Below, in pieces: positions 3,688 to 22,788 of a DNA stretch of 64,000 nucleotides. The translations under genes and the position numbers were made by a program. The first letter of the stretch is position 1, and each line of letters opens with the position of its first letter. The notes under the pieces are model-generated. The model was not told the DNA's origin and made no database searches. It saw only the letters and a program-made list of their open reading frames with translations. Origin of the DNA: a virus. The stretch lies in IMG/VR virus record IMGVR_UViG_3300030329_006034, positions 29,793-93,792 of that record; one strand, 5' to 3'.

Positions 3688-4370
3688 TTAATGAAAAGGA
3701 AAAATCTATATATAACAGTTTTTTATACGCGTCTCGAAAAGCAAAGAACAAACCAGTTCGGTTAAGGCAAAATTTTGACAATATAGCTAGTAAAGATGAA
3801 GTAGCTCTTAAAAAGCTTAATAACCTTTTATCAAAATACTCGCATATTAATTATAGTGATTTTTTTATAGCGCCATATGAAGTATATGGCCCGGATGAGT
3901 ACTTTGATTTGTCGTTCTTTAATACGAGAAGAGCTATAAAGTGCTATTCGTTATATTGTAAAGATAAAGAAACACGAGACCCGGATAGTGAAGATACTAT
4001 TAGCACATTAAAGGAATGTTTAAAGTTTATCTATAAATACTGTTCCGAAGAAAAAATAACACTCCAGGAATATAAAACATATATACCGGGAGTAGCTTCG
4101 GATCTTTTACCGGGTAGTGCAATACCAGAAGTATTTTATCATTTAAAAAACCACCATATCAATTTCTATACACTACACGCGCTTTATATGGATACAGCAG
4201 TAAAAGATATAGATACAGAAATATTCAATTGGTTTATACCTGATTTTATAGATTTATATTCCAAGACACGTATTAAATTTTTAAGTTCCAAATCACTTAA
4301 GGAAAAGGCAAAAAAGGGTCTGAAAATAATAGAACAAAAACTGTTGAAGTTCAGCGCGCAGTCGTTATAA
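3684..4370 (+). CDS. gp59: Helicase loader (T4 gp59-like)
   Basis: The 228-residue protein matches T4 gp59 (217 residues) in length and position, directly upstream of gp32. The middle segment IPEVFYHLKNHHINFYTLH aligns well with the T4 stretch ending SYIFKLLQSNIISFETF, and the preceding YSDFFIAPYEV and TLKECLKFIYKY blocks fit the all-helical fold. In T4, gp59 binds fork DNA, gp32 and gp41 and loads the helicase. The ATG overlaps the upstream stop by 4 bases, so the genes are translationally coupled. The call rests on modest sequence similarity plus strong synteny. Confidence 0.65.
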   Translation: MINEKEKSIYNSFLYASRKAKNKPVRLRQNFDNIASKDEVALKKLNNLLSKYSHINYSDFFIAPYEVYGPDEYFDLSFFNTRRAIKCYSLYCKDKETRDPDSEDTISTLKECLKFIYKYCSEEKITLQEYKTYIPGVASDLLPGSAIPEVFYHLKNHHINFYTLHALYMDTAVKDIDTEIFNWFIPDFIDLYSKTRIKFLSSKSLKEKAKKGLKIIEQKLLKFSAQSL

Positions 4371-4377
4371 TTATGGC

Positions 4378-5208
4378 ATGAGTACTTTTAATACTTCAAT
4401 GTTTCAATCAATTAAAGACGCGTTAGCAAGCTCTGATAGTAAGGGCTCTGCTACATTCAACGAAATTATGCAGACTAAGGTCGGTAATACGTTTACGGTT
4501 AGACTTTTGCCTTTTGCAAAAGATCCTAGTAAGACATTTTTTCATTATTACAATCACGGGTGGAATTCCTTTGCTACTGGACAGTATGTGCAGACGTTAA
4601 GTCCGCAGACGTTTGGTGAGCGTGATCCTATCGCTGAAGAACGTTTCAAGGTTCTTCGTACTGGTAGTGAAGAAGATAAAGAAAAGATGAGTGCTGTTCG
4701 TCGTTTGGAAAAATGGCTTGTAAATGTTTATGTTATTGACGACCCTGTCAATCCAGACAACAACGGTAAGGTAAAAATTCTGCGGTATGGTAAGCAGCTT
4801 CAAAAAATTATTACTGAAGCTATTGAAGGCGAAGATGCTGAAGAGTTTGGTCCACGTATTTTCGATCTTGGTTCTGAAGGTGTAAACTTTAAGATCAAGG
4901 TTGAGCAGCAAGGTGATTTTCCGACATACGTTTCTTCGAGATTTACCGCTGCTGGTAAAGTTGATCTTTCGGAAGACCAGCAAAAGGATATTTATGATGG
5001 TGTGTTTGATCTCACCGAGGTGTTTACTCTTAAGTCTTATGATGATCTTAAGGAAATGTTCAACGAGCATTACTACTGCAAGACTGAAGATACTACCCCG
5101 GAGACAACAGCGCCAGTTCCGGAAGCAACTCCAGCAGAGCCAGAGCCGGTAGCTGTTGCTAATGACACGGTAGAAGAAGATATTGACGACTTGTTAAAGG
5201 ATCTTTAA
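4378..5208 (+). CDS. gp32: Single-stranded DNA-binding protein (T4 gp32)
   Basis: The 276-residue protein shows the gp32 OB-fold landmarks: VRLLPFAKDP near residue 40, YYNHGWNSF near 57, VNVYVIDDPVNPDNNGKV near 115 and FDLTEVF near 210. It ends with an acidic tail closing in DDLLKDL, nearly identical to the T4 terminus DDLLNDL that recruits partner proteins. It coats ssDNA at forks and recombination sites. The T4 zinc site (His and three Cys in the loop after NHG) is absent: that loop here reads VQTLSPQTFGERDP without cysteines. The only Cys is near residue 235. The ATG at 4378 is used because an in-frame start with the SIKDALASS N-terminus follows it. Confidence 0.92.
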   Translation: MSTFNTSMFQSIKDALASSDSKGSATFNEIMQTKVGNTFTVRLLPFAKDPSKTFFHYYNHGWNSFATGQYVQTLSPQTFGERDPIAEERFKVLRTGSEEDKEKMSAVRRLEKWLVNVYVIDDPVNPDNNGKVKILRYGKQLQKIITEAIEGEDAEEFGPRIFDLGSEGVNFKIKVEQQGDFPTYVSSRFTAAGKVDLSEDQQKDIYDGVFDLTEVFTLKSYDDLKEMFNEHYYCKTEDTTPETTAPVPEATPAEPEPVAVANDTVEEDIDDLLKDL

Positions 5209-10469: not shown

Positions 10470-10538
10470 TATAGTTGTATAGAATATGAACATTGATAGG
10501 TTTATCTTAAAAGATAGTAGTCCCAATACAATGGAATT
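10456..10538 (+). repeat. Promoter plus 5'-coding repeat, copy 1
   Basis: These 83 bases align without gaps to 11055-11137 (offset 599). The first 30 bases, upstream of the ATG, match at 28 positions and carry TATAAT at 10465-10470. The first 18 codons remain similar (both encode an LKD.S..TME pattern). This looks like duplication of a promoter with the start of a gene. Confidence 0.8.
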
Positions 10539-11052
10539 ACAATTTAACTCTCAAATACAACAAGATAAGTGGATTTGTCAAGTGCTTGAAAATCTAAAAA
10601 ACGGAACATGGGTCGATATAGGTTGTGGAGCTCCAATATATATCAATAATACTTACGTACTAGAAAATCAGCTAGGATGGAAAGGAATATCATTAGATCT
10701 CGATAAGAGTTCAACTGATCAATGGAGAGAAGTAGGTAGAGATACTAAAATGGTCTTTAATCAAGATGCTTTAACTACTGATTATAAAAAATTATTTGAA
10801 GAATGTAATATGCCTAAAGTTATAGATTATCTTTCTCTAGATCTTGAACCTCCGCAGTTAACATTACAGGCGTTATATAAAATACCTTTTGATGATTATA
10901 AGTTTAAGTGTGTAACTTATGAAACTGATGTTTATCGAACTCTAGAAACAGTTGAGCCTTCAAGAAAGCTTTTTGCAGAAAAAGGCTACATTTTAGTTCA
11001 AGAGATGGGTAGTCAAGATGACTTTTATATACATCCTGATTGCGTTAATTAG
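10486..11052 (+). CDS. FkbM-like SAM-dependent methyltransferase
   Basis: The 188-residue protein has the SAM-binding block TWVDIGCGAPIYINNT near residue 40, then GWKGISLDLD (acidic residue after strand 2) and YLSLDLEPPQ near residue 115, the pattern of FkbM-type methyltransferases that often act on sugar hydroxyls. The C-terminal EKGYILVQEMGSQDDFY completes the family layout. It probably modifies a glycan or small molecule. The promoter just upstream is a TATAAT type shared with the next gene, so it should be expressed early rather than late. Its N-terminal codons belong to a duplicated segment. Confidence 0.7.
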   Translation: MNIDRFILKDSSPNTMELQFNSQIQQDKWICQVLENLKNGTWVDIGCGAPIYINNTYVLENQLGWKGISLDLDKSSTDQWREVGRDTKMVFNQDALTTDYKKLFEECNMPKVIDYLSLDLEPPQLTLQALYKIPFDDYKFKCVTYETDVYRTLETVEPSRKLFAEKGYILVQEMGSQDDFYIHPDCVN

Positions 11053-11054
11053 TA

Positions 11055-11137
11055 GAACGGAACTATAATATAATTATATAGAATATGAAAAATTTTAAAT
11101 TTAATTTAAAAGATGGTAGTACCAAAACAATGGAATT
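11055..11137 (+). repeat. Promoter plus 5'-coding repeat, copy 2
   Basis: The gapless counterpart of 10456-10538. It carries TATAAT at 11064-11069 and the ATG at 11085 at the same relative position as copy 1. Confidence 0.8.
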
Positions 11138-11318
11138 TGATGAACTAGTTCGTTGGGCGTGTTTAATTGAAGCTCTTGAAGTAGTTGGCGGTCAAGAAGA
11201 CGTAGATGTAGATAGTGATAAATGGATTAAACCCTTAGCTTTCCAAAAGTATATCGACGAAAGATATCACTCTATGAGACATGACCTTAAGGTTGAGGCT
11301 TCTTTAGGTAATTTGTAA
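11085..11318 (+). CDS. Small protein (77 aa) sharing its N-terminus with the methyltransferase
   Basis: No domain was recognised. The first 18 codons resemble those of the methyltransferase gene at 10486, after which the sequences diverge (here WACLIEALEVVGGQEDVDVD and KYIDERYHSMRHDL). It has its own copy of the TATAAT promoter. It may be a new small gene built by joining a duplicated promoter and start region to other sequence. It ends one base before the convergent fusion gene. Confidence 0.6.
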   Translation: MKNFKFNLKDGSTKTMEFDELVRWACLIEALEVVGGQEDVDVDSDKWIKPLAFQKYIDERYHSMRHDLKVEASLGNL

Positions 11319-11319
11319 G

Positions 11320-13629
11320 CTAAGACTGTATAATTGTTATTTCGTTTCCGTTTTCGAGGTTAAAAGTCTCTCGTAGTGGGAGTTGTGAAATTAGTTCTAT
11401 AAAGTCCGGTTTATATCTTTTCATATTTTTTTCCCAACGAATTGCCCAACATGAAATAATTGTGTTGTTAATTTCTGCGAAAAGTGGGTATAATCTACAC
11501 GGAGCCGGTTCCCAGTCCGGAGCATCGTTTATTTCCGCACTAATGTAATATTTTTCCCAATTAAAATTTTTATTTAACTTAATATTTAATGTCCCTGGGT
11601 AAGGTAATTCTTCAGTGTATGTAGCTATATCTATTATTCGCGAATTATCATTTCTAACAAACGCTTTAGACGCGCCGCCTGCACCGCTTCTAACTGTCCC
11701 GGTATAAATTACCTTGGGCTGCTCTAATATAAAATATTCTGATTTTTCTTTTAAAACAGAATATCTTTTTAAGAGATTTTTCCACTTCGGGACATTTTTA
11801 TGATGTCTAGTAGGTTGATCATAGCACTTTAAAGCGTTCATTTTCTGTTCATAAACTTCATCTGTTAATTTAAACTCTGTACCGGAGCCATAACCAAAAA
11901 ATAACTTTGGCACGTTTGGGATATTTGCTACGACCCACTTATGAATAAATTTATGATGTTTATGACCATATTCACCTGCTTCAGAATGCGTTACAATTAA
12001 GTCGTATTTTGATATCATATCAATTAACATATCTGGCATCTCCAAGGTAGTAGATTTTTTAACTTCGACGAATGGCAGTGACATTGCATTTGTAATACCT
12101 AAGGTGTTTGCAGCTCTAATATAACAAACAGACCGGACTTTATCTTCAATATCAGCAGGAACAGAGCAAGTTAAGCTATCCCACGTTTTATCTGGGTTCG
12201 ACGCAATTAAACCACCGGCCCAACATGTTTCATCATCTGGATGAGCTCCTATAACTAGTATTCGCTCCGCAGCATTAATAATATTATTAATTTTTGGTTT
12301 TTGAATTTTGGTGTATACGGTTAACGATTCATAATCATGAGATCTTTTAAACAGCCCTGAGTCGTCTACCAGTTGATGTGCAATTTTACCTTTATTTGAT
12401 TTTTTAAACATTATCATTTTACCGTCATCTTTTAGCATTGTATATAATGTTTCAATTAATTTAATATCTGTCGTTTGCCCGTAGTCCTCAATATCTTTAC
12501 CTCTTTTACTACAATATTTTTTGCTATATTCACAAAGGTGAAAATTCGTAATAATATCAAAATTATTTAAAAAAGGTGCTGTATTTAAGGTATACATGTC
12601 CCCATAAAATGCTTTATACTTGAGACATAATTCCGGATCTGTCTGTAACATATTCATATATTCCTGATATTCTTTAATCGACGCAGTAATACCTAATATA
12701 TTGTGATTTCTAAGATTATCGCCTACCATATGGTGACCACCGGTGCCGATATGAAATATAGATAGATCGCTAGTGTTTAAGGACGCCACGTAATCAATAA
12801 AATGCTTATCACATGGGCATCTTTTATAATCAAATTTACACGATTTATTATATGTGTTAAATTTTTTAATAGGAGGCGGTATCTCTACATTTTTTTTATT
12901 TTTTACCGTATTTAATACATGAAGCACATCCTTTGTGTGCTTGTCATCAAAAGTCCAATTTTCTTTAATGAATCTTTTGTCTCTTAATTCGTGTTGTTTA
13001 GGGTTACCATGAAAGTAGACATATCGAGCTGCTGGTGGAATTCCTGCGTCGAAGTCACCTTCGTTACAGTGCTTTTTATAGCTTACTAGTTGACCCGGTG
13101 TTACGTCATCCCATAGAGCATCTGGTTTTACGTAATCATTAAGCCAGAACATTTCTGAAAACTGACCCTTTAAAAAATATTTTCTGTTATGAATGTCGTC
13201 GTTTTTGTTCTTTAACCACGTATTCCAGACGTAGTCAGCTTTATCTGAATTTAAAGAGACGAAACCATTGCAAAGCTTACATAAACGCCCGGGATTACGA
13301 GGGACAATGTAAGATTCTTGCCGGTGTTCTATGTCTTCTGGTGACTTAATAAATAACCCATCGAGATCCATTATTATAGCACGTTCTTTAACGATTTCAG
13401 GTCTATACATTTCTAACTTGCAACACCAACCTCTTTCTGAGTTTATAAAAGGATATGTTTGAATTTCCGGAAGAAAGCCACTTTCAAAATCAGTAACTAC
13501 ACTTAAGGTGGAGTCTGGAGACCATTTTTTAATGTTTGAGTAGAGAGAATTTACCCACTGCGGGTTATATCCCGCTCCGAAATCTCGAAACTTAGAGGGT
13601 CTTTTAAATAATGTGGTTACGTAATTCAT
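11320..13629 (-). CDS. Four-part glycan enzyme: glycosyltransferase, methyltransferase-like, PIG-L deacetylase, CTP-riboflavin-kinase-like domain
   Basis: The 769-residue protein shows several units. Residues 1-230 resemble a GT8-type glycosyltransferase (SVVTDFESG, then IIMDLDGLFI as the DXD site). Residues 275-450 look like a degenerate methyltransferase (FHIGTGGHHMVGDN, DDGKMIMFKK). Residues 455-610 are a PIG-L-type N-deacetylase with VIGAHPDDETCWAGG near 463 and GEYGHKHHK near 556, which supply the zinc ligands. Residues 640-769 match archaeal CTP-dependent riboflavin kinase (DUF120): GTVRSGAGG, PYPGTLNIKL near 678 and LPLRETFNLENGNEI at the end. It overlaps the sialyltransferase-like gene by 4 bases, the last of an operon of glycan genes. 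Substrates are unknown; deacetylation of an N-acetyl sugar is likely for the PIG-L part. Confidence 0.8.
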   Translation of the reverse strand: MNYVTTLFKRPSKFRDFGAGYNPQWVNSLYSNIKKWSPDSTLSVVTDFESGFLPEIQTYPFINSERGWCCKLEMYRPEIVKERAIIMDLDGLFIKSPEDIEHRQESYIVPRNPGRLCKLCNGFVSLNSDKADYVWNTWLKNKNDDIHNRKYFLKGQFSEMFWLNDYVKPDALWDDVTPGQLVSYKKHCNEGDFDAGIPPAARYVYFHGNPKQHELRDKRFIKENWTFDDKHTKDVLHVLNTVKNKKNVEIPPPIKKFNTYNKSCKFDYKRCPCDKHFIDYVASLNTSDLSIFHIGTGGHHMVGDNLRNHNILGITASIKEYQEYMNMLQTDPELCLKYKAFYGDMYTLNTAPFLNNFDIITNFHLCEYSKKYCSKRGKDIEDYGQTTDIKLIETLYTMLKDDGKMIMFKKSNKGKIAHQLVDDSGLFKRSHDYESLTVYTKIQKPKINNIINAAERILVIGAHPDDETCWAGGLIASNPDKTWDSLTCSVPADIEDKVRSVCYIRAANTLGITNAMSLPFVEVKKSTTLEMPDMLIDMISKYDLIVTHSEAGEYGHKHHKFIHKWVVANIPNVPKLFFGYGSGTEFKLTDEVYEQKMNALKCYDQPTRHHKNVPKWKNLLKRYSVLKEKSEYFILEQPKVIYTGTVRSGAGGASKAFVRNDNSRIIDIATYTEELPYPGTLNIKLNKNFNWEKYYISAEINDAPDWEPAPCRLYPLFAEINNTIISCWAIRWEKNMKRYKPDFIELISQLPLRETFNLENGNEITIIQS

Positions 13630-14195
13630 TCGTATTTTACAATTGTTATTTTATTTCTTATTGATTGTAGCCAAGTTTGTTCGAGCTCCGGTCTATGGAA
13701 CCGGCTATTTTTTTTGCCTCCAGGTCTGCAGGGCCAGGTTCTCGACTTAAGTCCATCAAATCCAAATACTGTAGATGATGCTGGGTGAAAAATAGTCATA
13801 AGCGCATGCACCGTTGTAGCCCCTGTTGTAGGTTCCTTATAAATTAGATTTTTACACTCTTTTACTGCCTTAACCGGTAAGTGATATTCTACGTGTTTTG
13901 AACGACGCGTCGACATTATAAGTGACTTATAATGTCGCCGTTGTATGCTGTTCCAAAGCCACTGCATTTTATATGTTTTTCTTAGTAATGACATCGCACA
14001 AATCATAATATCTGTGCGGTTTCCGAGACTCTCTGATAGCTCTGGTATAGGAAATTGAAAATTAAATCTAATAACAACGTCGTGTTCATCAATCCACGAT
14101 CCATCCTTTTTTTCTATAATTTTTTCACAATTTCCAACAACAGCAACACTTTTCCCATCAATTAAATGAGATGCATATGTTAAATCCTTACTCAT
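13626..14195 (-). CDS. Sialyltransferase-like protein (GT29 family motifs)
   Basis: The 189-residue protein has SVAVVGNCEKI near residue 16 and IDEHDVVIRFNF near 35, closely matching sialylmotif L of GT29 (CAVVGNSG ... ID.HD.V.R.N), and PTTGATTVHALMTIF followed by VFGFDG near 122-147, matching sialylmotif S. GT29 enzymes move sialic acid, or in bacteria and phages related nonulosonic sugars, from CMP donors. It is shorter than animal enzymes and lacks a membrane anchor, as expected for a cytoplasmic phage enzyme. It starts on the stop of the upstream gene (1-base overlap) and overlaps the downstream fusion gene by 4 bases. Confidence 0.7.
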   Translation of the reverse strand: MSKDLTYASHLIDGKSVAVVGNCEKIIEKKDGSWIDEHDVVIRFNFQFPIPELSESLGNRTDIMICAMSLLRKTYKMQWLWNSIQRRHYKSLIMSTRRSKHVEYHLPVKAVKECKNLIYKEPTTGATTVHALMTIFHPASSTVFGFDGLKSRTWPCRPGGKKNSRFHRPELEQTWLQSIRNKITIVKYE

Positions 14196-14875
14196 TAATA
14201 CGGGGCTAATGAATCTATAGGCTCTTTTCTAGCTATGTTAATTTCTGATTCAACAGGAGAAAAGTTAACCAGGTCAATATTGAGTTTTTCGCAGCTTTCT
14301 AAAGCTAATTTAAATTTGTCCTTTAAGCGTGTAGCTCCAAGACGGAGAGGATCCGGGGTACTGTACGAACCGTAGAAAGAATCTGCTTCTAAATTTTTGA
14401 AGAAGTTCTCACCCCACTCTTGTATACTTGACTCTGTTTTATTGCAAAATTGATTCTGTAAATTGGGTCTCTTTGCTTGGTTCCACTTTTCAACCTTAGC
14501 TGGGTTGTAGTCGTGATCAAATCCTAAGAGACAAATCTTTTCTGGACGTAGCGACATCATTATCCAGTATAACCCCATAAAAAATATAGTGTACCCGCAA
14601 TGATGCTGCGGTGACTTAATATCCCAATTAAAATAATTTTTTGCGTCTTCAGCTGTTTTAGCGTATTCGTGAAATCCTACTTCTGTTCCAAATTTAAATT
14701 CACCTGGCTTAGGCTTTTGTTCTGATGGAAAATCTCCAGAACGTATCCAAGCATCGACTGGGTGATTTCTAAATAACCTCCATGCATTATTTACACAACA
14801 TACTGCATAATCATCAAGACTTACCGCGTCAACGAGTTTGGCTGAATTACCGCTTCCTACATATAATACTTTCAT
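14195..14875 (-). CDS. Sialyltransferase-like / DUF115-type glycosyltransferase
   Basis: The 226-residue protein begins VLYVGSGNSAKLVDA, a Rossmann-type GxGxS block, then VCCVNNAWRLF and PVDAWIRSGDFP. The centre has HCGYTIFFMGLYWIMMSL and EKICLLGFDHDYN. This order resembles GT42 and DUF115-type transferases, which use CMP-sugars or act on flagellin and surface glycans. The exact family is uncertain. It overlaps the GT2 gene by 4 bases, so it belongs to the same operon. It is probably a second transferase acting on the same glycan. Confidence 0.55.
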   Translation of the reverse strand: MKVLYVGSGNSAKLVDAVSLDDYAVCCVNNAWRLFRNHPVDAWIRSGDFPSEQKPKPGEFKFGTEVGFHEYAKTAEDAKNYFNWDIKSPQHHCGYTIFFMGLYWIMMSLRPEKICLLGFDHDYNPAKVEKWNQAKRPNLQNQFCNKTESSIQEWGENFFKNLEADSFYGSYSTPDPLRLGATRLKDKFKLALESCEKLNIDLVNFSPVESEINIARKEPIDSLAPY

Positions 14876-15702
14876 AACTTTAACTCTCTTTTAACTTCTT
14901 TAATAAAATCTTCCGGTATTACATCTTTAAACTGCTCAATAACAAGATTAGTATCTAATCCCACTTCTTGATGACCGATCATATAGTTTCTGAATCGATC
15001 TTTAAGATCGTTTCGATATGGCACCCCGTCAGGTCTATCAAATCTATGGTTCCATCTTAAGAAAGGCAAGCACATTACTTTCTTACCATGTTTTCTGTAT
15101 TTTTCATGAATATACCCCTCTTCACCACCAAACCCTCTAAAGTTAGAATTAAAGCCTAGCCAACTATCTTTACGACATGTAAACAATCCTAATCCTTGCG
15201 CTTCTATTTCAAATGGGTCACTATTAGCATATTCACCTCTTGTATCCACGCCCCATTCACCCCACATATGTGCACCCCACTTACTTAAATTGAAGTGTGT
15301 ACTATAACTTTTTAAGTCATCGTAGAGCAAAGGACCATGTAGTAAATTTCCATCATCTTTCCCACTATCGTAATAATCTAAAAGTTTCTTTAACGCGCCG
15401 TTTTCAATTAACACGTGACAATCCATTACTAACACGTATTCTGTGTTTGCTAAATCAAATATCTTTGATCGCAATGCTGTGGATTGAAAGTTATCGTATT
15501 CAATATATGTTGTGGGCTCTTTAATCCAGTTTTTAAAATTATAAAGCGCTTTACCCTGATTAGAGTTAGGGTTGTTATTAATAATAACGAACTCTAGCCT
15601 GTCTAGTATATCCCTGTTATGTAATCTTGCTGATTGTAAGGTAAAATATGCCCCGTCGTAGTCATCGTATACACATATACCAATAGTAAGTTTGCCTGTC
15701 AT
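14872..15702 (-). CDS. GT2 family glycosyltransferase
   Basis: The 276-residue protein is a GT-A enzyme. It has LTIGICVYDDYDGAYFTLQS at the N-terminus, VIINNNPNS near residue 40, YVLVMDCHVLI near 90 (DXH in place of DXD, as in polypeptide GalNAc-transferases), and FRGFGGEEGYIHEKYRKHG near 190 followed by a WNHRF histidine. The D.H site plus the GG.E.E block recalls ppGalNAcT-type enzymes that add the first sugar to Ser/Thr. It lies 13 bases downstream of the Ser/Thr-rich virion protein gene, so initiating O-glycosylation of that protein is an attractive inference. Confidence 0.8.
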   Translation of the reverse strand: MTGKLTIGICVYDDYDGAYFTLQSARLHNRDILDRLEFVIINNNPNSNQGKALYNFKNWIKEPTTYIEYDNFQSTALRSKIFDLANTEYVLVMDCHVLIENGALKKLLDYYDSGKDDGNLLHGPLLYDDLKSYSTHFNLSKWGAHMWGEWGVDTRGEYANSDPFEIEAQGLGLFTCRKDSWLGFNSNFRGFGGEEGYIHEKYRKHGKKVMCLPFLRWNHRFDRPDGVPYRNDLKDRFRNYMIGHQEVGLDTNLVIEQFKDVIPEDFIKEVKRELKL

Positions 15703-15715
15703 ACGACATTACTTA

Positions 15716-18700
15716 CTAAAACTTTAGAACATTGCAACGAGGTCCTCCTCTAGATTCCGGTGGACATATTGTTGTCGGGGGCGGTGGTGTAGTTACCGTT
15801 GTCGTTGTCACCGTCGGTGTTGTAGTCGGGGTTGTAGTCCGCCGGCGACGACGCGTCGTTGAAGGAATCGGTGGAAAGACCGGATCTCCACCACCGACAA
15901 CAATTATTGGGGGCCTTGTAACTGGTGGGTTTGGCGGCCCAATGGGTTGTCCTCCAGGGGTGTCATCCGTTGGTGGGCATGGGCAACATTCGCACATTTC
16001 CCAACCTAAACCTTTATCTTTTGGCTCGAGATCTTTGGTACGAAGCTTTGCTGGCTTCTTTTTATTTTGCGGATTCATTGCAGGATCATTAACATGCATT
16101 AAAACGTCAATTGCTGGATTAAGCATAGGATTAGCATTAACAAAATCTGCATTAATAATTTTAAAACAAATCGGTCGGCATGCTTCTCTACAATCTTCAT
16201 CAAAATTTTTCGCAACGTCTTCCAGGCCTCCCTCCCAGTTTTCTTCTTCCTCTTCAGAAATTACACCGTCGTTGTTTGCGTCCTTCTTTCTGTTTGGATC
16301 AAATACAACTTCACCGTCTTCATTTTTAAACTGCTTTAACCGGTCGCCATCCTTTATATCGCCTATAGTAAGCTCGTTGCCTGGTTTAACAGCATTCCAA
16401 TTTTCATCGTTTTCTATTAAACGCTCTCTAGCCAATGCGTCGTTTATATCTTGGCGCGCTCTTTCTGGATCTGCTAATAGGTTATCAAACCTATTTAACG
16501 CCCAATCTGGTCGCTCGAGATCTTCAGGCGGCACGCCACCGTGAATTTCTTGCAACCTTCTCTCTTGCGATAATAAGGTTCGCAATTGATCTTCTTGTTG
16601 AGGAGCTAACCAGTCCTCGTTTTCAACAATTTGTTGTATAAGACCACCCACATTACCTTTAGCAATATTGTAATCTATTCGTGCCTGATTTAATCTCCCT
16701 TGTGCTTCATCTAGTTTTTCCTGTGCTGCTTCTGCCCCTGCAGACCCGGCTGGTTCTTCAGCAAGCGCCTCTTCTGCTTTTTTTACCGCTGCCAAGGCAT
16801 CTCTTCCTTCTTGTAGTGCGTCTTCAATAACGTCATCAACAAATCCCTCAGCACCAAACGGTGGATCAGTGCAGCAGTATTTTATTACAGTACCTTCTTC
16901 CACCTCAACCGGAAACTTGTCATTATCAGGAATGCCATCTTCATCTTTATCCTCCAGATCACGTACTATCTTTATACGCTGTATAGTCCACCTACCCGGC
17001 TCTACCTTTATAATTCTTATACCTCTAATCTTCCTATCAGGGTTATTCGGATCAGTAACCTTTACGCTTTCGAGTTGTCTTCTTATTTCTGCTCTTCGAG
17101 CTACTGCAGCGTCAGAATCACCACGTGGAACACTAATATTTTCAGGATCCGACCATTCCCCTTTGAAAGCCGGTTCAAATTTAACAAAGCCGAGATCAAC
17201 AAAGACGTTATTGTTTCTTGCTTTCCAATACCAGCATAGATTACAGTTTGTTGGCGGGCAACACGGGCAACATTCACACTCTCTCCATCCGAGTCCTCTA
17301 TCAACTTCTCCATCGCCGTCTGTATCGTCATCTGGTAATTCGCCATTTTCTCTAATATCTTCTGACGGTCTAGTATCCTTATTTTGATTTACCCACTCTG
17401 CATCATGAATTTTAAAACACCTTCTCTTGTCCTCATCAAGGTATTCCGCTTTCCATTGTTCGAGACGTGCCCATAGGTCATTTGCTTGTTCTGGTGTTAT
17501 ATAACCTTGATTAACAGTGAACTGAACCATCGATCGCGCTTTAAACAGATCATTTTCTAACAACGCACCAGCGACGTCAAACTCACTACGATCCGGATCT
17601 TCATCCATTCCTTCATGACGAAGTTGGTTTGGAAAAACCCCAGGTGCGAGTCCTTCCGCGTAAGTTTTTGCTTCAAATTCGGGCCCTTCCCAAAACACTA
17701 GTCCGTTTTCTGCTGTCCCGTCAAACGGTCTTAAGTAGTTGTCCCGAGCATTATCCCAAAACCACATTGCTAGTCTTTCTGCTGGAGGCGCGCATTCCGG
17801 AACACAGCACGGTGTTGTGGTACTTGTAGAAGTTGATGTTGATGTACTCGTACTAGTAGATGTAGATGTACTAGTTGAAGTAGAAGTTGAAGTAGAAGTT
17901 GATGTTGTAGTAGTTACATCATCCTTATCTGGGCAACATTCGCAATATTCCCATCCCCCAGCTGCATGACCGGCTTCGACAGGATTTTCTAGACCATTAT
18001 ATCCAATTGGTATTTCATTATCCCAGTGTCCTTTACCAAAGCGATCTTCTACTGATTGCTCGTTATCAAATTGATAAGCTGCAGCAACTAGCTCTGCTGG
18101 TGATCTATCTAAATTTTGTCGTACAAGATCTTCATTAACAATCTTGTAACACTGCCCGTCACTATCATCTAAACACTTTTCCCATTCTATGCCAGCGCTA
18201 TTATTATCCTTTACTACAAGTACAGCTGTTGGAGTAGCAGCCCACTCCCCGTTAAAGTCATCCTCTGTTGCCTGCTTTTTATCCGCCCCCGTAGCAGCGA
18301 GCTCAATATATATATTTTTATAATTGCCTTGTTTTACCTCTTCTTTGGTAGCTGTTTCTTTTTCAAAGTACCATTCACCTTTCGGCGGGCAACACTTAGG
18401 ACACGGTGTAGTAGTTGACGTGGTCGTAGGTGGACTCGTAGTAGATGTACTAGTTGATGTTGTGGTTGTAATGTCTGGTTTTCCCGGTGGTTTTTTCTTG
18501 CAGCAACGACATTCTTTCCACACTGCAGAACTTAAACTCGGATCAATACACGCTGGGTCTTCCTGTTTAGGGTTATAAGATTCAGCAGAACCATCACTAT
18601 TAGATTGACTACTTTCTCGGGAATTATACAGAGCTTCCCAATTAATTAGCCGATAGCACTTTCCATTATGTTTTATAACTATTCCCTTCTTAGCAGCTTT

Positions 18701-21700
18701 TTCAAGCTCTTCCTTATTAATAGTACCATCTTCATTCATGACACCGGGAAAAGCATCCAGAAAATTTCCTTCTGTTGGTGGGTCGCCTTCACCGTCCCAT
18801 CCTTCATTTTCGTCCCGGATCTGCCGAACTTCTCCATCAACTTCTGGTCCTGTTCCCACCGGTGCACCTACGTTAACCGGTTCAGTTCTCTCAACTTCAC
18901 CTGGCTCGTTAGGATCCGGATCAGCCGGCGCCTCAGGATCCGGATCATCTGGCTCAATAGGCTTGCTCTTCTGCCTTTCGTCATTAATACCGGGTACTGG
19001 ATCTTGTCCCGGCACAACGACATCATCTCCCTCGCCCGGCTGGCTCGCCGGTTCGAACCACCTCTCAATCGCCCCGAGTGCGATTCCTATTCGCGCACCA
19101 TCTTCTGGAACGTCACGGAATAAACCGCCACTCTCCCAACCATCATTAGGTCTATGAAAAACAAGATAAGGGTCACGATCATCGGCGAATAAACGAGCGT
19201 CTAATGATGCATTCTTGGCATTTGAAAGTTCTACAGTGATACCCAAGTTATTATCAAAGACAACATCTATAATATTGCCTTTATTGTCCCGAGTAATAGT
19301 CATAGGAATTCCACGTTCATCGGGCCCGGGAAGGAGAGCCCCTCCAAGAGCGTCAAAACTTCGATGTCTCCATTGGCTCACCCCGAGACCGGGTAACCCT
19401 TCTCGGTTAATCCTCTCAACCTCGGCACCACTTCTTCCAACCAAATGTTGTTGTTCTGGATGTCTAAATAAAACTCTTTCTTGTCGCGATTGTCCTTGGT
19501 TACGCACATTGCGTTTAGCTTTAGGATTTTGTAACGCACCTGGTCCTCTAACACTAACGGTTACAGGACTTCTTTGTTGTGTGCCAGTTGGTTGCTGTCG
19601 TGAAGTTGCAACTAGTGTATAAGTGTTATCGGCATTTAGTTGAGCGTGTAATTCCTGCGTAACAACTACATTTTGCCCACCTCCACCTTCAAACAGGCCT
19701 TGAAAGTTAGATGCGTTTTGTTGCTGTACCTTATTATAGGCGGTGTAGTTATTAGGTGGTGACGTTCCATAAGTATTAGGCGGAAAAGTCGTACCTGCCT
19801 CCTCCGGTGGCATCGTCGTACTATCCTCATCCGGTGGCATCGTCGTACTATCTGTGCTATAATTTGGTGCAGTATTTGTATTGAGATCTTCTAAAGGATC
19901 TCCTGTTGGTGGGTTATGTGTCCACCCTAACTGCTCGAGCTCTAAATGCTGCTTAAAAGTAGTAGTATATATTCCGTACCCCTCAGCATCATACATGTAA
20001 TGCGGTGTAAAGGTCACTTGTGTGTAGACAGGATCATTTGCTGAACTTTGTGACTTTGATGGAGCAGGAGTTGATGGTGCCGGAGCCCGAGGAAACGGCG
20101 TTGCCTCTACATTTGGATTTGGTGTAGTTGTCCGCGTTGTGGGTCGCGGTGGCATTGTTGGCATAGGCCCGGGCTCAAATGGATCCGGTGTTGTAGGTGC
20201 AATCGGTCTTCTTGTTGTAGTTGTAGTAGTAATAGGCTCCGGAGCTGAAGTAGTAGTAGTAACATCATCGGGCTCGGTCACCGTAGGTGAAACACTTGGC
20301 TTACCTGTTGAGATATCAACTGTGCGCAGTTTATGCACCTTACTATCTGTCTGTACGCTAAGGCTCTCCATAGCCTCATTGATCTTACTCTGTGTTTCAG
20401 AATTACCGTAAAATGGACCCTCTAAATTTGTGGTATGTGTTTCAATTAAAATGGGCGTGTCTTCAGTATATATAAATGCTGGTCCACTACTATCACCCTT
20501 TCCTAACCCTTCCCTTAGATTACCGTCGTACTCATCAGCGTATTCATCTGGAAGAGAGGTATATAAGACCACTTTTTCTCCTGCTTTTCCCAGCCTATTC
20601 GCGGCTTGAAAGCTTACTACTTTTGGAAGTGTTTTTCTCTCTTGATCGATTACAACAACATATGCGCCTGTTAACTCTTTATTGTATCCACCTACCGGCC
20701 GTGGTTCTGGTACAGGGTAGATTTCAGTATTTTCGACCGGTGCATTAAGAATACCGACGCTAATATCTGCACCTTGTAGCGGCTCGACCGCTACGATAGT
20801 ACGTGTAACTCGCTCGCCGCTATTGTTAATAAAGTTAACAGTGTTACCAGGCATACGTAAATCCCAGTGCTTCGACATTACAAAGTGAGTAGGTGAAACT
20901 AAAGTTACAGCTTTTTTGTACCCGGGCGTTGGATATGAGGGAGCTTTTTCACTAACTCCAGAGAGATTTACCTTGCTATTAAGATCTGGTAAGATTGATA
21001 GGAGTAATGTGTTTATTTCTTTTGATACTGTATCGTCGGCTGTTGGTTTTTGAAGCCGGGGATCCACCGTGGTTTTATCGGTATCAAAACTATCAACATC
21101 TGAAGTGGTATTGTACGTAGTCGATCCGGATCCGGATCCAGTATAAATACTAGTATCGACAGTAGAATTGCGTACTATTAACTCCTCAAAGGTTATAGAC
21201 CAGTCTTCTGATGTATCTACTATAAAGCTATCTATACTATCCGGGTAATAATATGTCGTCCCAGCTGCAGTATCAACCCTAACTCTATTTGGATTCTTCG
21301 AGTCGTAGCTTTCGTAATCTACATCATATGATTCACCTTCATAACCTTTAAAAAAAGCCGACCCTAGCATCGCGAAGTATTTTTTTAAATTCGGGCCTTT
21401 ATTTAGTGTTGTGTCTTTGCCAGACTTAGGATTATTCCAGTACCAGGGACCTGTAGGCCAACAGCATGTTGTTGTACTAGTTGAAGTTGAAGTTGACGTT
21501 GATGTACTTGTACTTGTACTAGTTGATGTAGATGTACTAGTTGAAGTTGAGGTTGTAGTAGTTACATCATCACATTCACAGCAAATCTCTATACAGCATC
21601 CGCAGCTTTCTATTAGTAAATATAAGTCTGATCCTGGATCGCTAGGATTTATTCGGGCTGGAATCGCATCATTAATTCCTTGCCTGTCCTTTAGGATGAC

Positions 21701-21892
21701 TGAAAGGAAAGGTGTAGTTGCGTTTTTTTTGTATATCTTATATAACGGCCCGCCTCCGGATACTGATGTTATTTTGATCGTTCCCTCTTTACAATTACAC
21801 TCGTATTTTACCGTTACTGTGTCATTAGAACATTGTCCGGGATTGCTGTTACAATCACTACTCGAGTTACTAGCTGAACTATCATTAGCCAT
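15716..21892 (-). CDS. Giant mucin-like, Cys-rich virion adhesin with a trypsin-like domain (2058 aa)
   Basis: The protein is a mosaic. Residues 1-105 are Cys-rich, ending ICCECDD. (ST)n linkers lie at about 109-143, 1141-1163 and 1324-1361, with further Thr/Pro-rich runs near 541-620 and at the C-terminus. Residues about 320-500 have a trypsin-like triad: SPTHF near 335, ADISVGIL near 373 and GDSSGPAF near 467. Later Cys modules share an opening aromatic block (GPWYW, GEWYF, MWFWD, CWYWK), a C[FY]K[IV] block near their end and a GW..C.CC close. The ending contains RRRRRTTTPTTT. The gene sits at the end of the fibre cluster and is followed by four glycan-enzyme genes in the same orientation. 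It is likely a surface fibre or adhesin whose Ser/Thr linkers may be O-glycosylated. It starts 2 bases after the upstream gene and has no promoter of its own. Confidence 0.75.
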   Translation of the reverse strand: MANDSSASNSSSDCNSNPGQCSNDTVTVKYECNCKEGTIKITSVSGGGPLYKIYKKNATTPFLSVILKDRQGINDAIPARINPSDPGSDLYLLIESCGCCIEICCECDDVTTTTSTSTSTSTSTSTSTSTSTSTSTSTSTTTCCWPTGPWYWNNPKSGKDTTLNKGPNLKKYFAMLGSAFFKGYEGESYDVDYESYDSKNPNRVRVDTAAGTTYYYPDSIDSFIVDTSEDWSITFEELIVRNSTVDTSIYTGSGSGSTTYNTTSDVDSFDTDKTTVDPRLQKPTADDTVSKEINTLLLSILPDLNSKVNLSGVSEKAPSYPTPGYKKAVTLVSPTHFVMSKHWDLRMPGNTVNFINNSGERVTRTIVAVEPLQGADISVGILNAPVENTEIYPVPEPRPVGGYNKELTGAYVVVIDQERKTLPKVVSFQAANRLGKAGEKVVLYTSLPDEYADEYDGNLREGLGKGDSSGPAFIYTEDTPILIETHTTNLEGPFYGNSETQSKINEAMESLSVQTDSKVHKLRTVDISTGKPSVSPTVTEPDDVTTTTSAPEPITTTTTTRRPIAPTTPDPFEPGPMPTMPPRPTTRTTTPNPNVEATPFPRAPAPSTPAPSKSQSSANDPVYTQVTFTPHYMYDAEGYGIYTTTFKQHLELEQLGWTHNPPTGDPLEDLNTNTAPNYSTDSTTMPPDEDSTTMPPEEAGTTFPPNTYGTSPPNNYTAYNKVQQQNASNFQGLFEGGGGQNVVVTQELHAQLNADNTYTLVATSRQQPTGTQQRSPVTVSVRGPGALQNPKAKRNVRNQGQSRQERVLFRHPEQQHLVGRSGAEVERINREGLPGLGVSQWRHRSFDALGGALLPGPDERGIPMTITRDNKGNIIDVVFDNNLGITVELSNAKNASLDARLFADDRDPYLVFHRPNDGWESGGLFRDVPEDGARIGIALGAIERWFEPASQPGEGDDVVVPGQDPVPGINDERQKSKPIEPDDPDPEAPADPDPNEPGEVERTEPVNVGAPVGTGPEVDGEVRQIRDENEGWDGEGDPPTEGNFLDAFPGVMNEDGTINKEELEKAAKKGIVIKHNGKCYRLINWEALYNSRESSQSNSDGSAESYNPKQEDPACIDPSLSSAVWKECRCCKKKPPGKPDITTTTSTSTSTTSPPTTTSTTTPCPKCCPPKGEWYFEKETATKEEVKQGNYKNIYIELAATGADKKQATEDDFNGEWAATPTAVLVVKDNNSAGIEWEKCLDDSDGQCYKIVNEDLVRQNLDRSPAELVAAAYQFDNEQSVEDRFGKGHWDNEIPIGYNGLENPVEAGHAAGGWEYCECCPDKDDVTTTTSTSTSTSTSTSTSTSTSTSTSTSTSTSTTTPCCVPECAPPAERLAMWFWDNARDNYLRPFDGTAENGLVFWEGPEFEAKTYAEGLAPGVFPNQLRHEGMDEDPDRSEFDVAGALLENDLFKARSMVQFTVNQGYITPEQANDLWARLEQWKAEYLDEDKRRCFKIHDAEWVNQNKDTRPSEDIRENGELPDDDTDGDGEVDRGLGWRECECCPCCPPTNCNLCWYWKARNNNVFVDLGFVKFEPAFKGEWSDPENISVPRGDSDAAVARRAEIRRQLESVKVTDPNNPDRKIRGIRIIKVEPGRWTIQRIKIVRDLEDKDEDGIPDNDKFPVEVEEGTVIKYCCTDPPFGAEGFVDDVIEDALQEGRDALAAVKKAEEALAEEPAGSAGAEAAQEKLDEAQGRLNQARIDYNIAKGNVGGLIQQIVENEDWLAPQQEDQLRTLLSQERRLQEIHGGVPPEDLERPDWALNRFDNLLADPERARQDINDALARERLIENDENWNAVKPGNELTIGDIKDGDRLKQFKNEDGEVVFDPNRKKDANNDGVISEEEEENWEGGLEDVAKNFDEDCREACRPICFKIINADFVNANPMLNPAIDVLMHVNDPAMNPQNKKKPAKLRTKDLEPKDKGLGWEMCECCPCPPTDDTPGGQPIGPPNPPVTRPPIIVVGGGDPVFPPIPSTTRRRRRTTTPTTTPTVTTTTVTTPPPPTTICPPESRGGPRCNVLKF
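17811..17920 (-). repeat. Ser-Thr dipeptide-coding microsatellite
   Basis: The segment encodes about 37 residues of alternating Ser and Thr between two Cys-rich modules of the giant adhesin. Codons vary (AGT, TCA, ACA, ACT), so the protein repeat is kept without an exact DNA repeat, arguing for selection on the amino acids. Confidence 0.8.
18404..18471 (-). repeat. Short Ser/Thr-rich linker repeat
   Basis: The segment encodes a shorter TTTTSTSTSTTSPPTTTSTTT-type linker with Pro between two Cys-rich modules of the adhesin. Confidence 0.7.
21467..21566 (-). repeat. Ser-Thr dipeptide-coding microsatellite
   Basis: The segment encodes about 33 alternating Ser/Thr residues between the N-terminal Cys-rich domain and the CCWPTGPWYW module. 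Flanking codons (DDVTTTTSTS) match those of the 17811-17920 linker. Confidence 0.8.
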
Positions 21893-21894
21893 AA

Positions 21895-22788
21895 TTATAC
21901 AGATCTAGCTGTTATATCACTAACAGTAGAAATAACAGTATTTTCATTAACTGGTATTTCTGCACTAGTAATTGTTTCGGTTAATACAGAATAACCTACA
22001 TATCCCTCTGTATGAAAGTTCTTTAAAAAGAATTCTTTGGCACTTAGGTTAACAGCAGTAGCAGATACAGGCGTTGTAAATGAAAACCCGCAATATATAT
22101 CATCTAGATTACTATAGTTTTCTAATCTAAACCCTAAATCAACGGTCGTTAATGGAGAGTAGGTTGTAGTGTCTGAGTCGTGGTAGTCTATAAATAATTT
22201 TTGTCCTAAGTTTACATATCTAAATCTTAGCGTTCTAAATGTATCCGTTGAAAGAGTACTAAACGATGTAGATATAGCAGAAAGGTGCTCGTTAAGAATA
22301 ACGTTATGGTTATAATCTCTCAAGATAAGAGATTCCTTTTTCTTATAATCATACCCGACGCCCGGTCGACTATCACGGCCATCTACGGCGTATAGTCCCG
22401 TTGTATCAAATGCTATTTTTAATAAAACACCGCTTAATGCGTTTTCTTCAACTTCTATAAATTCACCGGCTTCTGTAAGTAAAGAAGCACCTGCTTCTGT
22501 AGTGAGCTTGCCTCCAGATAAAATCCACGCAGGGTCTGAGTCTCCTATATATTGACCCGGTAATGCTGAAATTGGAGAAGATAGAGTAGTTAGAAATGTA
22601 GCAAATGCTAGTTGGTAGTCTTCAGGATCTTCGATGTTAAGTACTTCGCTATTTGTAATAGTAGTTTGTGGTAATTTATACTGAAAAGACCATACTATAT
22701 CATAATTAGAATTATATTTTCTTTTTGTTTCTATAAAAGAATAATATCTTGCGTCAGTTGGCAAAGTAATGTCACTAGGGAAAGCCAT
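21895..22788 (-). CDS. Putative fibre-associated protein (297 aa)
   Basis: The protein is beta-rich, with repeated hydroxy residues, and looks like a concanavalin/jelly-roll type domain: WSFQYKLPQ near residue 30, GVLLKIAFDTTGLYAVDG near 120, RTLRFRYVNLGQKLFIDYHD near 185 and DDIYCGFSFTTP near 230. This pattern suggests a carbohydrate-binding sandwich, but no exact family was recognised. It has a late-promoter variant ATTAAATA and is followed after 2 bases by the giant adhesin, so both are probably on one message. A tail-fibre or adhesin partner is likely. Confidence 0.6.
   Translation of the reverse strand: MAFPSDITLPTDARYYSFIETKRKYNSNYDIVWSFQYKLPQTTITNSEVLNIEDPEDYQLAFATFLTTLSSPISALPGQYIGDSDPAWILSGGKLTTEAGASLLTEAGEFIEVEENALSGVLLKIAFDTTGLYAVDGRDSRPGVGYDYKKKESLILRDYNHNVILNEHLSAISTSFSTLSTDTFRTLRFRYVNLGQKLFIDYHDSDTTTYSPLTTVDLGFRLENYSNLDDIYCGFSFTTPVSATAVNLSAKEFFLKNFHTEGYVGYSVLTETITSAEIPVNENTVISTVSDITARSV

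Follow-up and report, generated by a model that had tools for sequence, protein, structure and literature searches.

The GT2 locus and its Ser/Thr-run protein

We analyzed a 64,000-base stretch of viral DNA (the window), bases 29793-93792 of the 93,792-base (93.8-kb) IMG/VR virus record IMGVR_UViG_3300030329_006034, in which the gene for a large protein with long serine/threonine (Ser/Thr) runs, the "adhesin," lies beside a gene for a GT2 glycosyltransferase. Because GT2 and Ser/Thr stretches occur together across many related phages, it is probable that such phages put a sugar coat on a protein of their own. The large terminase is T4-like, with Sinorhizobium phage phiM9 as the closest cultured-phage match (38% identity), and baseplate and tail genes are also present in the window. 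A first-pass annotation had proposed that five touching minus-strand genes, running from 21892 to 11320, form an operon in which four enzymes glycosylate the phage's own fiber, an interpretation that our analysis partly supports. The features at the locus, in window coordinates, are as follows.

15716-21892, minus strand: large Ser/Thr-run protein (adhesin), 2058 amino acids (aa), from the open reading frame (ORF) list
14872-15702, minus strand: GT2, 276 aa, with the fold of a polypeptide GalNAc-transferase (ppGalNAc-T) predicted and D94-x-H96 and GFGGEE invariant, from Pfam, alignment, and model
14195-14875, minus strand: variable-slot gene 1, 226 aa, with a weak likeness to sialyltransferases and the GT42/DUF115 label unconfirmed, from a weak PHROG match
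13626-14195, minus strand: variable-slot gene 2, 189 aa, short, GT29-like (sialyltransferase family), from PF00777
11320-13629, minus strand: variable-slot gene 3, 769 aa, fusion of glycosyltransferase, putative methyltransferase, PIG-L, and DUF120 parts, from Pfam, PHROG, and inspection by eye
21895-22788, minus strand: conserved 297-aa gene directly upstream of the adhesin gene, from comparison of relatives
11085-11318, plus strand: conserved 77-aa gene on the opposite strand, bordering the variable slot and usable as a GT2-independent anchor, from comparison of relatives

All five ORFs occupy the annotated positions on the annotated strand, with a gap of 13 bases (15703-15715) between the adhesin and GT2 genes and overlaps of 4, 1, and 4 bases thereafter. 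The layout of the proposed operon therefore holds, but the touching series starts one gene earlier, with the 297-aa gene ending 2 bases before the adhesin gene. The T4-type late promoter TATAAATA was no more frequent in the window than expected by chance, and none was found at the operon start.

In the adhesin, Ser/Thr runs are set between Cys-rich segments; a trypsin-fold domain lies inside the protein and a tag at its C terminus. Its long Ser/Thr linkers are real, comprising three main runs and a Thr/Pro tail.

21467-21562, minus strand: Ser/Thr run 1, residues 111-142, with Cys-Cys (CC) pairs on both sides (sequence)
18404-18469, minus strand: Ser/Thr/Pro run 2, residues 1142-1163 (sequence)
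17810-17914, minus strand: Ser/Thr run 3, residues 1327-1361, with CC pairs on both sides (sequence)
15767-15862, minus strand: Thr/Pro-rich C-terminal stretch, residues about 2011-2042 (sequence)
15719-15736, minus strand: C-terminal tag CNVLKF, pattern C-x-x-L-x-[FWY] (comparison of locus proteins)
20258-21037, minus strand: trypsin-fold (PA-clan-like) domain in which His342, Asp376, and Ser468 do not vary (alignment, AlphaFold2 model, and PDB matches)

The runs are encoded by a mixture of seven codon types (ACA, ACT, ACC, ACG, TCA, TCT, and AGT). Compared as DNA repeats they agree at just 65-85%, a single short stretch aside. For these reasons the runs more likely reflect selection on the protein than simple slippage, and microsatellite slippage as their origin is disfavored. 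In relatives, long runs are kept at the same place while their sequences differ. The trypsin-fold domain was not recognized by Pfam, and a sequence-only PDB search with it was uninformative. Its AlphaFold2 model (predicted local distance difference test score [pLDDT] 81), however, gave PDB matches that were, among those shown, nearly all trypsin-fold proteases (E 1e-6 and weaker), and the His, Asp, and Ser are invariant in 15 aligned sequences. The domain thus combines a predicted trypsin fold with the His-Asp-Ser triad of the PA clan and is a putative protease; homologues occur in many relatives, both with and without GT2. The gene context suggests that the large protein is located in the tail or elsewhere in the virion.

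GT2 and its pairing with Ser/Thr runs

The GT2 label is borne out by a match to PF00535 (31.1 bits, cut-off 23.3) in Pfam, and the DXH site is present as DCH. The AlphaFold2 model of GT2, built on 53 relatives, has a pLDDT of 93.4, and all 50 of its 50 best PDB matches are polypeptide GalNAc-transferases (best E 7e-13, query template modeling scores 0.62-0.75). D94-x-H96 shows no exception among 53 phage sequences or in an alignment of 12 phage and 29 bacterial rows, and the GGEE of GT2 is reminiscent of the GGEN motif of ppGalNAc-Ts. The predicted fold and the DXH motif support the proposal that the enzyme is an initiator of the polypeptide-GalNAc-T type, and GT2 is likely, on the strength of this model, to initiate O-glycosylation. 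A sequence-only PDB search with GT2 was uninformative, and two GT2 queries found no match in the cultured phage collection, one of them even at E 1.

To follow the pairing across relatives, we use "long run" for a Ser/Thr run of 8 or more. A first scan with GT2 gave 9 loci, and a profile scan gave at least 455 confirmed relatives, 80 of which are listed. A long run is present in the abutting gene at 62 of the 86 GT2 loci listed, and in most loci the gene ending 7-13 bases before GT2 encodes a Ser/Thr-run protein. In a non-redundant set of 54 GT2 loci, 45 of 984 ORFs contain a long run, and all 45 adjoin GT2 or sit in its adjacent gene cluster: 41 are tagged, three more abut GT2 (in L042, in L235, and in L067, where it is convergent), and that of L046 is next but one. 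The GT2-abutting proteins are otherwise unrelated and range from 2431 aa down to 113-177 aa; the small ones are 44-61% Ser+Thr and contain little besides a run and the C-terminal tag. Six small acceptors (L054-L057, L070, and L080) are concealed beneath antisense ORFs.

A GT2-independent comparison was made with loci found through the conserved 77-aa gene. In their tagged proteins the longest run has a median of 14 where GT2 is present (n = 25, non-redundant) and 3.5 where it is absent (n = 8; Mann-Whitney p 6e-4, indicative only, as the samples are related), while total Ser+Thr is equal (0.18 versus 0.17).

The tag itself is shared by Ser/Thr-run proteins at the GT2 locus that otherwise show no relationship. 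Their C terminus reads C-x-x-L-x-[FWY], usually C-[NK]-x-L-x-[FYW], with a second Cys 3-9 residues before it in most. It ends 85 of the 5,567 ORFs of the collected loci, all at the GT2 locus (two entries are the window's own protein), and as many as three tagged proteins stand in tandem in L059, L068, L069, and L077. When DNA was scanned for one form of the tag, 10 matches were true ORF ends, 8 adjoining GT2 and 2 without GT2, so the tag goes with the protein and not with glycosylation. Tagged proteins without GT2 occur in L208, L209, L211-L214, L217-L220, L222, and L223, and in L235 a run is fused to the 297-aa gene homologue, with the tag absent and GT2 still adjoining. As a GT2 recognition signal, the tag is consequently neither necessary nor sufficient; our guess is that it may serve virion attachment.

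A similar arrangement appears in bacteria. One bacterial genome scan with GT2 gave 80 loci (L086-L165) at 38-52% identity, in which the GT2 domain mostly lies within larger proteins carrying PqqD, HprK-like, GT25, DUF6065, or epimerase domains. Many neighbors are small proteins with a twin-arginine (Tat)-type N terminus and Thr repeats, and TIGR01409 scores above its cut-off in L089. Counted strictly, Tat-type Thr-repeat proteins lie within 3.5 kb in 23 of the 80 loci and in 0 of 80 beyond that distance (559 kb of DNA searched near, 519 kb farther); a looser count of Ser/Thr-dense ORFs gives 40 of 80 within 3.5 kb against 9 farther, some of them spurious frames. These neighbors follow a pattern like LPxKWxKPVVxSVxxPAHA and then Thr repeats (for example L090:6085-6558, L091:6951-7866, and L111:6140-6905), and PqqD and HprK-related domains occur near the bacterial GT2/Tat-type pairs. 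Pairing with an unrelated acceptor in bacteria is the strongest independent support for GT2 acting on runs. Judged by these gene neighborhoods, the bacterial GT2-domain genes and their Thr-repeat neighbors possibly form an undescribed protein glycosylation system; no description of the arrangement was found in the papers searched.

Taken together, the adjacency in most relatives, the co-variation of runs with GT2, and the bacterial pairing with unrelated proteins make the Ser/Thr runs the likely target of GT2. That GT2 would glycosylate the runs of its adjacent protein is well supported by these comparisons of genes.

Several observations weigh against this reading. The Foldseek matches of GT2 have only 12-17% identity and root mean square deviations mostly above 5 Å, and sequence profiles A1 and A4 retrieve no GalNAc-T chain. 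Profile A4 reaches GT2 enzymes only, across the N-terminal half, placing the family in GT2 and not GT27; for this reason we describe the enzyme as ppGalNAc-T-like in its action without assigning it to GT27. The eight GT2-less tagged proteins stem from few lineages, and the statistics ignore shared ancestry. Single loci break the trend in either direction: L213 lacks GT2 but has a run of 10, whereas in L206, L207, and L210 GT2 is accompanied by no more than Thr-Pro-Ala repeats or short runs. GT2 lacks an adjacent run in 11 of the 54 non-redundant loci. Run-less GT2 is seen in two clades (L006, L007, L045, L047, L051; and L029-L031, L036, L037, L039) and in L010, L065, L226, and L229. The L010 relative of GT2 (4053-4922) is placed between genes for DNA polymerase B and UvsX, on a short contig and far from any tail gene there. 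A search of nine run-less records, including ones of 80.6 kb and 105 kb, found no run of ten [ST] codons, with codons of the WCN form counted, AGY serines left out, and the contigs incomplete. The first-pass annotation had named phages with the enzyme genes and no Ser/Thr-linker protein as evidence against it, and such phages do exist in part, since no fewer than two clades, together with a handful of single records, have run-less GT2. On the GT2 tree, the run/no-run label requires six changes, one of which is the truncated contig L013. The run-less clades fit either loss of the acceptor with GT2 kept for another target or an acceptor in missing sequence.

If GT2 instead targets other virion proteins, such as the 297-aa product or another tail protein, the runs would be plain flexible spacers. 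GT2 is immediately downstream of the 297-aa gene homologue in several relatives, and it directly follows that homologue with no run in L006, L007, L045, L047, L051, L226, and L229. Many freshwater-type loci with 113-177-aa run-plus-tag proteins, however, have no 297-aa homologue beside GT2, and tagged proteins without GT2 are mostly run-less; we regard this explanation as quite improbable. T-even-type phage glycosyltransferases glycosylate hypermodified DNA, and the T4-like terminase, together with the position of GT2 in L010, could be taken to favor such a role here. We rejected DNA modification as the role of GT2 because the thymidylate synthase/dCMP hydroxymethylase family was not found on the record, which may be incomplete. 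The position in the structural region and the fold of a protein O-GalNAc enzyme also argue against it, leaving it barely plausible.

Exchangeable enzymes downstream of GT2

The fixed set of four enzymes proposed earlier did not hold up: GT2 alone is conserved, and the other three are absent or replaced in every relative found. The region between GT2 and the 77-aa gene is a slot whose gene content differs among close relatives. It holds polyST-like, GT2, and galactose-3-O-sulfotransferase genes in L002; fusions with GT2-, GT32/Caps_synth-, and methyltransferase-type domains in L003 and L004; GT2-type genes in L025, L028, and L034 (below the Pfam cut-off in the latter two); GT6 in L027 and L038; and GT31 in L046. 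The slot genes of L005 and L013 and the second gene of L004 have no family given, and the slot is empty in many relatives. All identified slot enzymes of relatives are of glycan type. GT31, GT6, GT29, and galactose-3-O-sulfotransferase are families that build mucin glycans in animals. The slot enzymes are an exchangeable cassette, mostly glycan-acting, beside one core enzyme, GT2; their position and families hint that they might cap a glycan.

In the window, the GT29-like label of the 189-aa protein stands (PF00777, 38.6 bits against 23, profile positions 58-180 of 272). This protein weakly matches a solved alpha-2,3-sialyltransferase, and a direct scan of viral contigs with it found no relatives. 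The 226-aa protein falls into no firm family: it has a weak match to phrog_4603 (E 0.0011, no stretch passing), none in Pfam, and none in the cultured phage collection; a 53% homologue is encoded in an unrelated phage (L265), with no Ser/Thr-run protein in the part of that locus analyzed, where it adjoins a GDP-mannose dehydratase-like gene (L265:8046-9656). The 769-aa protein, annotated as a deacetylase fusion, does contain PIG-L (37 bits against 28.2), but a DUF120/CTP-dependent riboflavin kinase domain at its C terminus (40.9 bits, cut-off 25) had been overlooked. This kinase-like domain makes up the last 100 aa, joined to PIG-L in a phage; the N terminus is a phage glycosyltransferase domain (phrog_1962, E 3e-24), and the middle part is methyltransferase-like as judged by eye only.

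The suggestion of a sialic-acid-like glycan found no backing, as neither NeuB nor the CMP-sialate-synthetase family (CTP_transf_3) was detected on the 93.8-kb record, though the host could supply CMP-sialic acid. The phage has further glycan genes in a second cluster at the record's left end (L011:643-3602), which encodes a GT2 and a nucleotide-diphospho-sugar transferase. Beside the slot, a 188-aa gene (window 10486-11052, plus strand) has no Pfam or PHROG match and looks FkbM-methyltransferase-like by eye; since a homologue is absent from the first relative set, it appears to be another insertion at the locus.

An exchangeable slot also raises the question of whether GT2 and the slot enzymes alter the host surface (lipopolysaccharide [LPS] or capsule), causing phage exclusion or receptor change, with the locus a hitch-hiking hot spot. 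The exchangeability of the slot genes, one with its 53% homologue near a GDP-mannose dehydratase-like gene, would suit this idea, as would the persistence of GT2 in phages where no Ser/Thr run was found and the fusion of some bacterial GT2 homologues to GT25, which takes its family name from LPS synthesis. We nevertheless consider it unlikely, given that runs vary with the presence of GT2 while Ser+Thr content stays equal, that all long runs in the phage loci examined are located at GT2, that the nearest fold is that of protein-modifying GalNAc-Ts, and that the abutting genes lie within the structural region.

A candidate O-glycosylation module

We therefore return to self-glycosylation and think it fairly likely that the locus is a phage-encoded O-glycosylation module composed of GT2, the adjacent Ser/Thr-run protein, and exchangeable slot enzymes. 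In such a module, GT2 would add the first sugar to Ser/Thr residues of the runs in the cytoplasm of the infected cell, soon after translation, a timing to which the 7-13-base spacing of the genes in most relatives points. Slot enzymes (here the GT29-like protein, the 226-aa protein, and the glycosyltransferase/deacetylase/kinase-like fusion) would then extend or cap the glycan, and the glycosylated protein would join the particle, where the conserved tag at its C terminus perhaps anchors it. The result would be a stiff stalk coated with sugars that differ between phages; speculatively, the coat might serve shielding, stiffening, adhesion or binding, or protease resistance.

The phage GT2 resembles the animal ppGalNAc-Ts (GT27), the initiators of mucin-type O-glycosylation, in its predicted fold, its DXH motif, and its adjoining Ser/Thr-rich acceptor. 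Unlike GT27 enzymes, it is a single domain of 276 aa with no C-terminal ricin-type lectin domain and no significant GT27 sequence match, and it would act in the bacterial cytoplasm. Virion glycosylation has a precedent in the mycobacteriophage Che8 and its relatives (Freeman et al. 2023, cited by PMC11256854 and PMC12619734). By those accounts, Che8-type phages encode glycosyltransferases for their own structural proteins, the role that we propose for the enzymes here. Their modified sites are the C termini of capsid and tail-tube proteins, whereas here the candidate is a Ser/Thr-run protein with a dedicated abutting GalNAc-T-like enzyme and an exchangeable decoration slot. The bacterial proteins share a homologous domain (38-52%) and Thr/Ser-repeat neighbors with the phage system but are multidomain, and their partners carry a Tat-type N terminus where the phage partner has a C-terminal tag. 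Our literature searches, which covered few subscription journals, found no description of the pairing of GT2 with Ser/Thr runs.

A broader proposal, which we advance only tentatively, is that T4-like phages possess a widespread, undescribed mucin-type O-glycosylation system (a GalNAc-T-like initiator, a tagged acceptor, and an exchangeable capping slot) with a bacterial sister system acting on Tat-exported Thr-repeat proteins. If self-glycosylation is correct, virion glycosylation would extend from a few mycobacteriophages to a large uncultured phage group, and GT2 would represent a compact O-glycosyltransferase for proteins, made of one domain and with its acceptor defined. Phages would then have evolved sugar coats that can be exchanged on a tail protein, and the same comparisons point to an apparently undescribed bacterial protein-glycosylation family tied to Tat-type Thr-repeat proteins.
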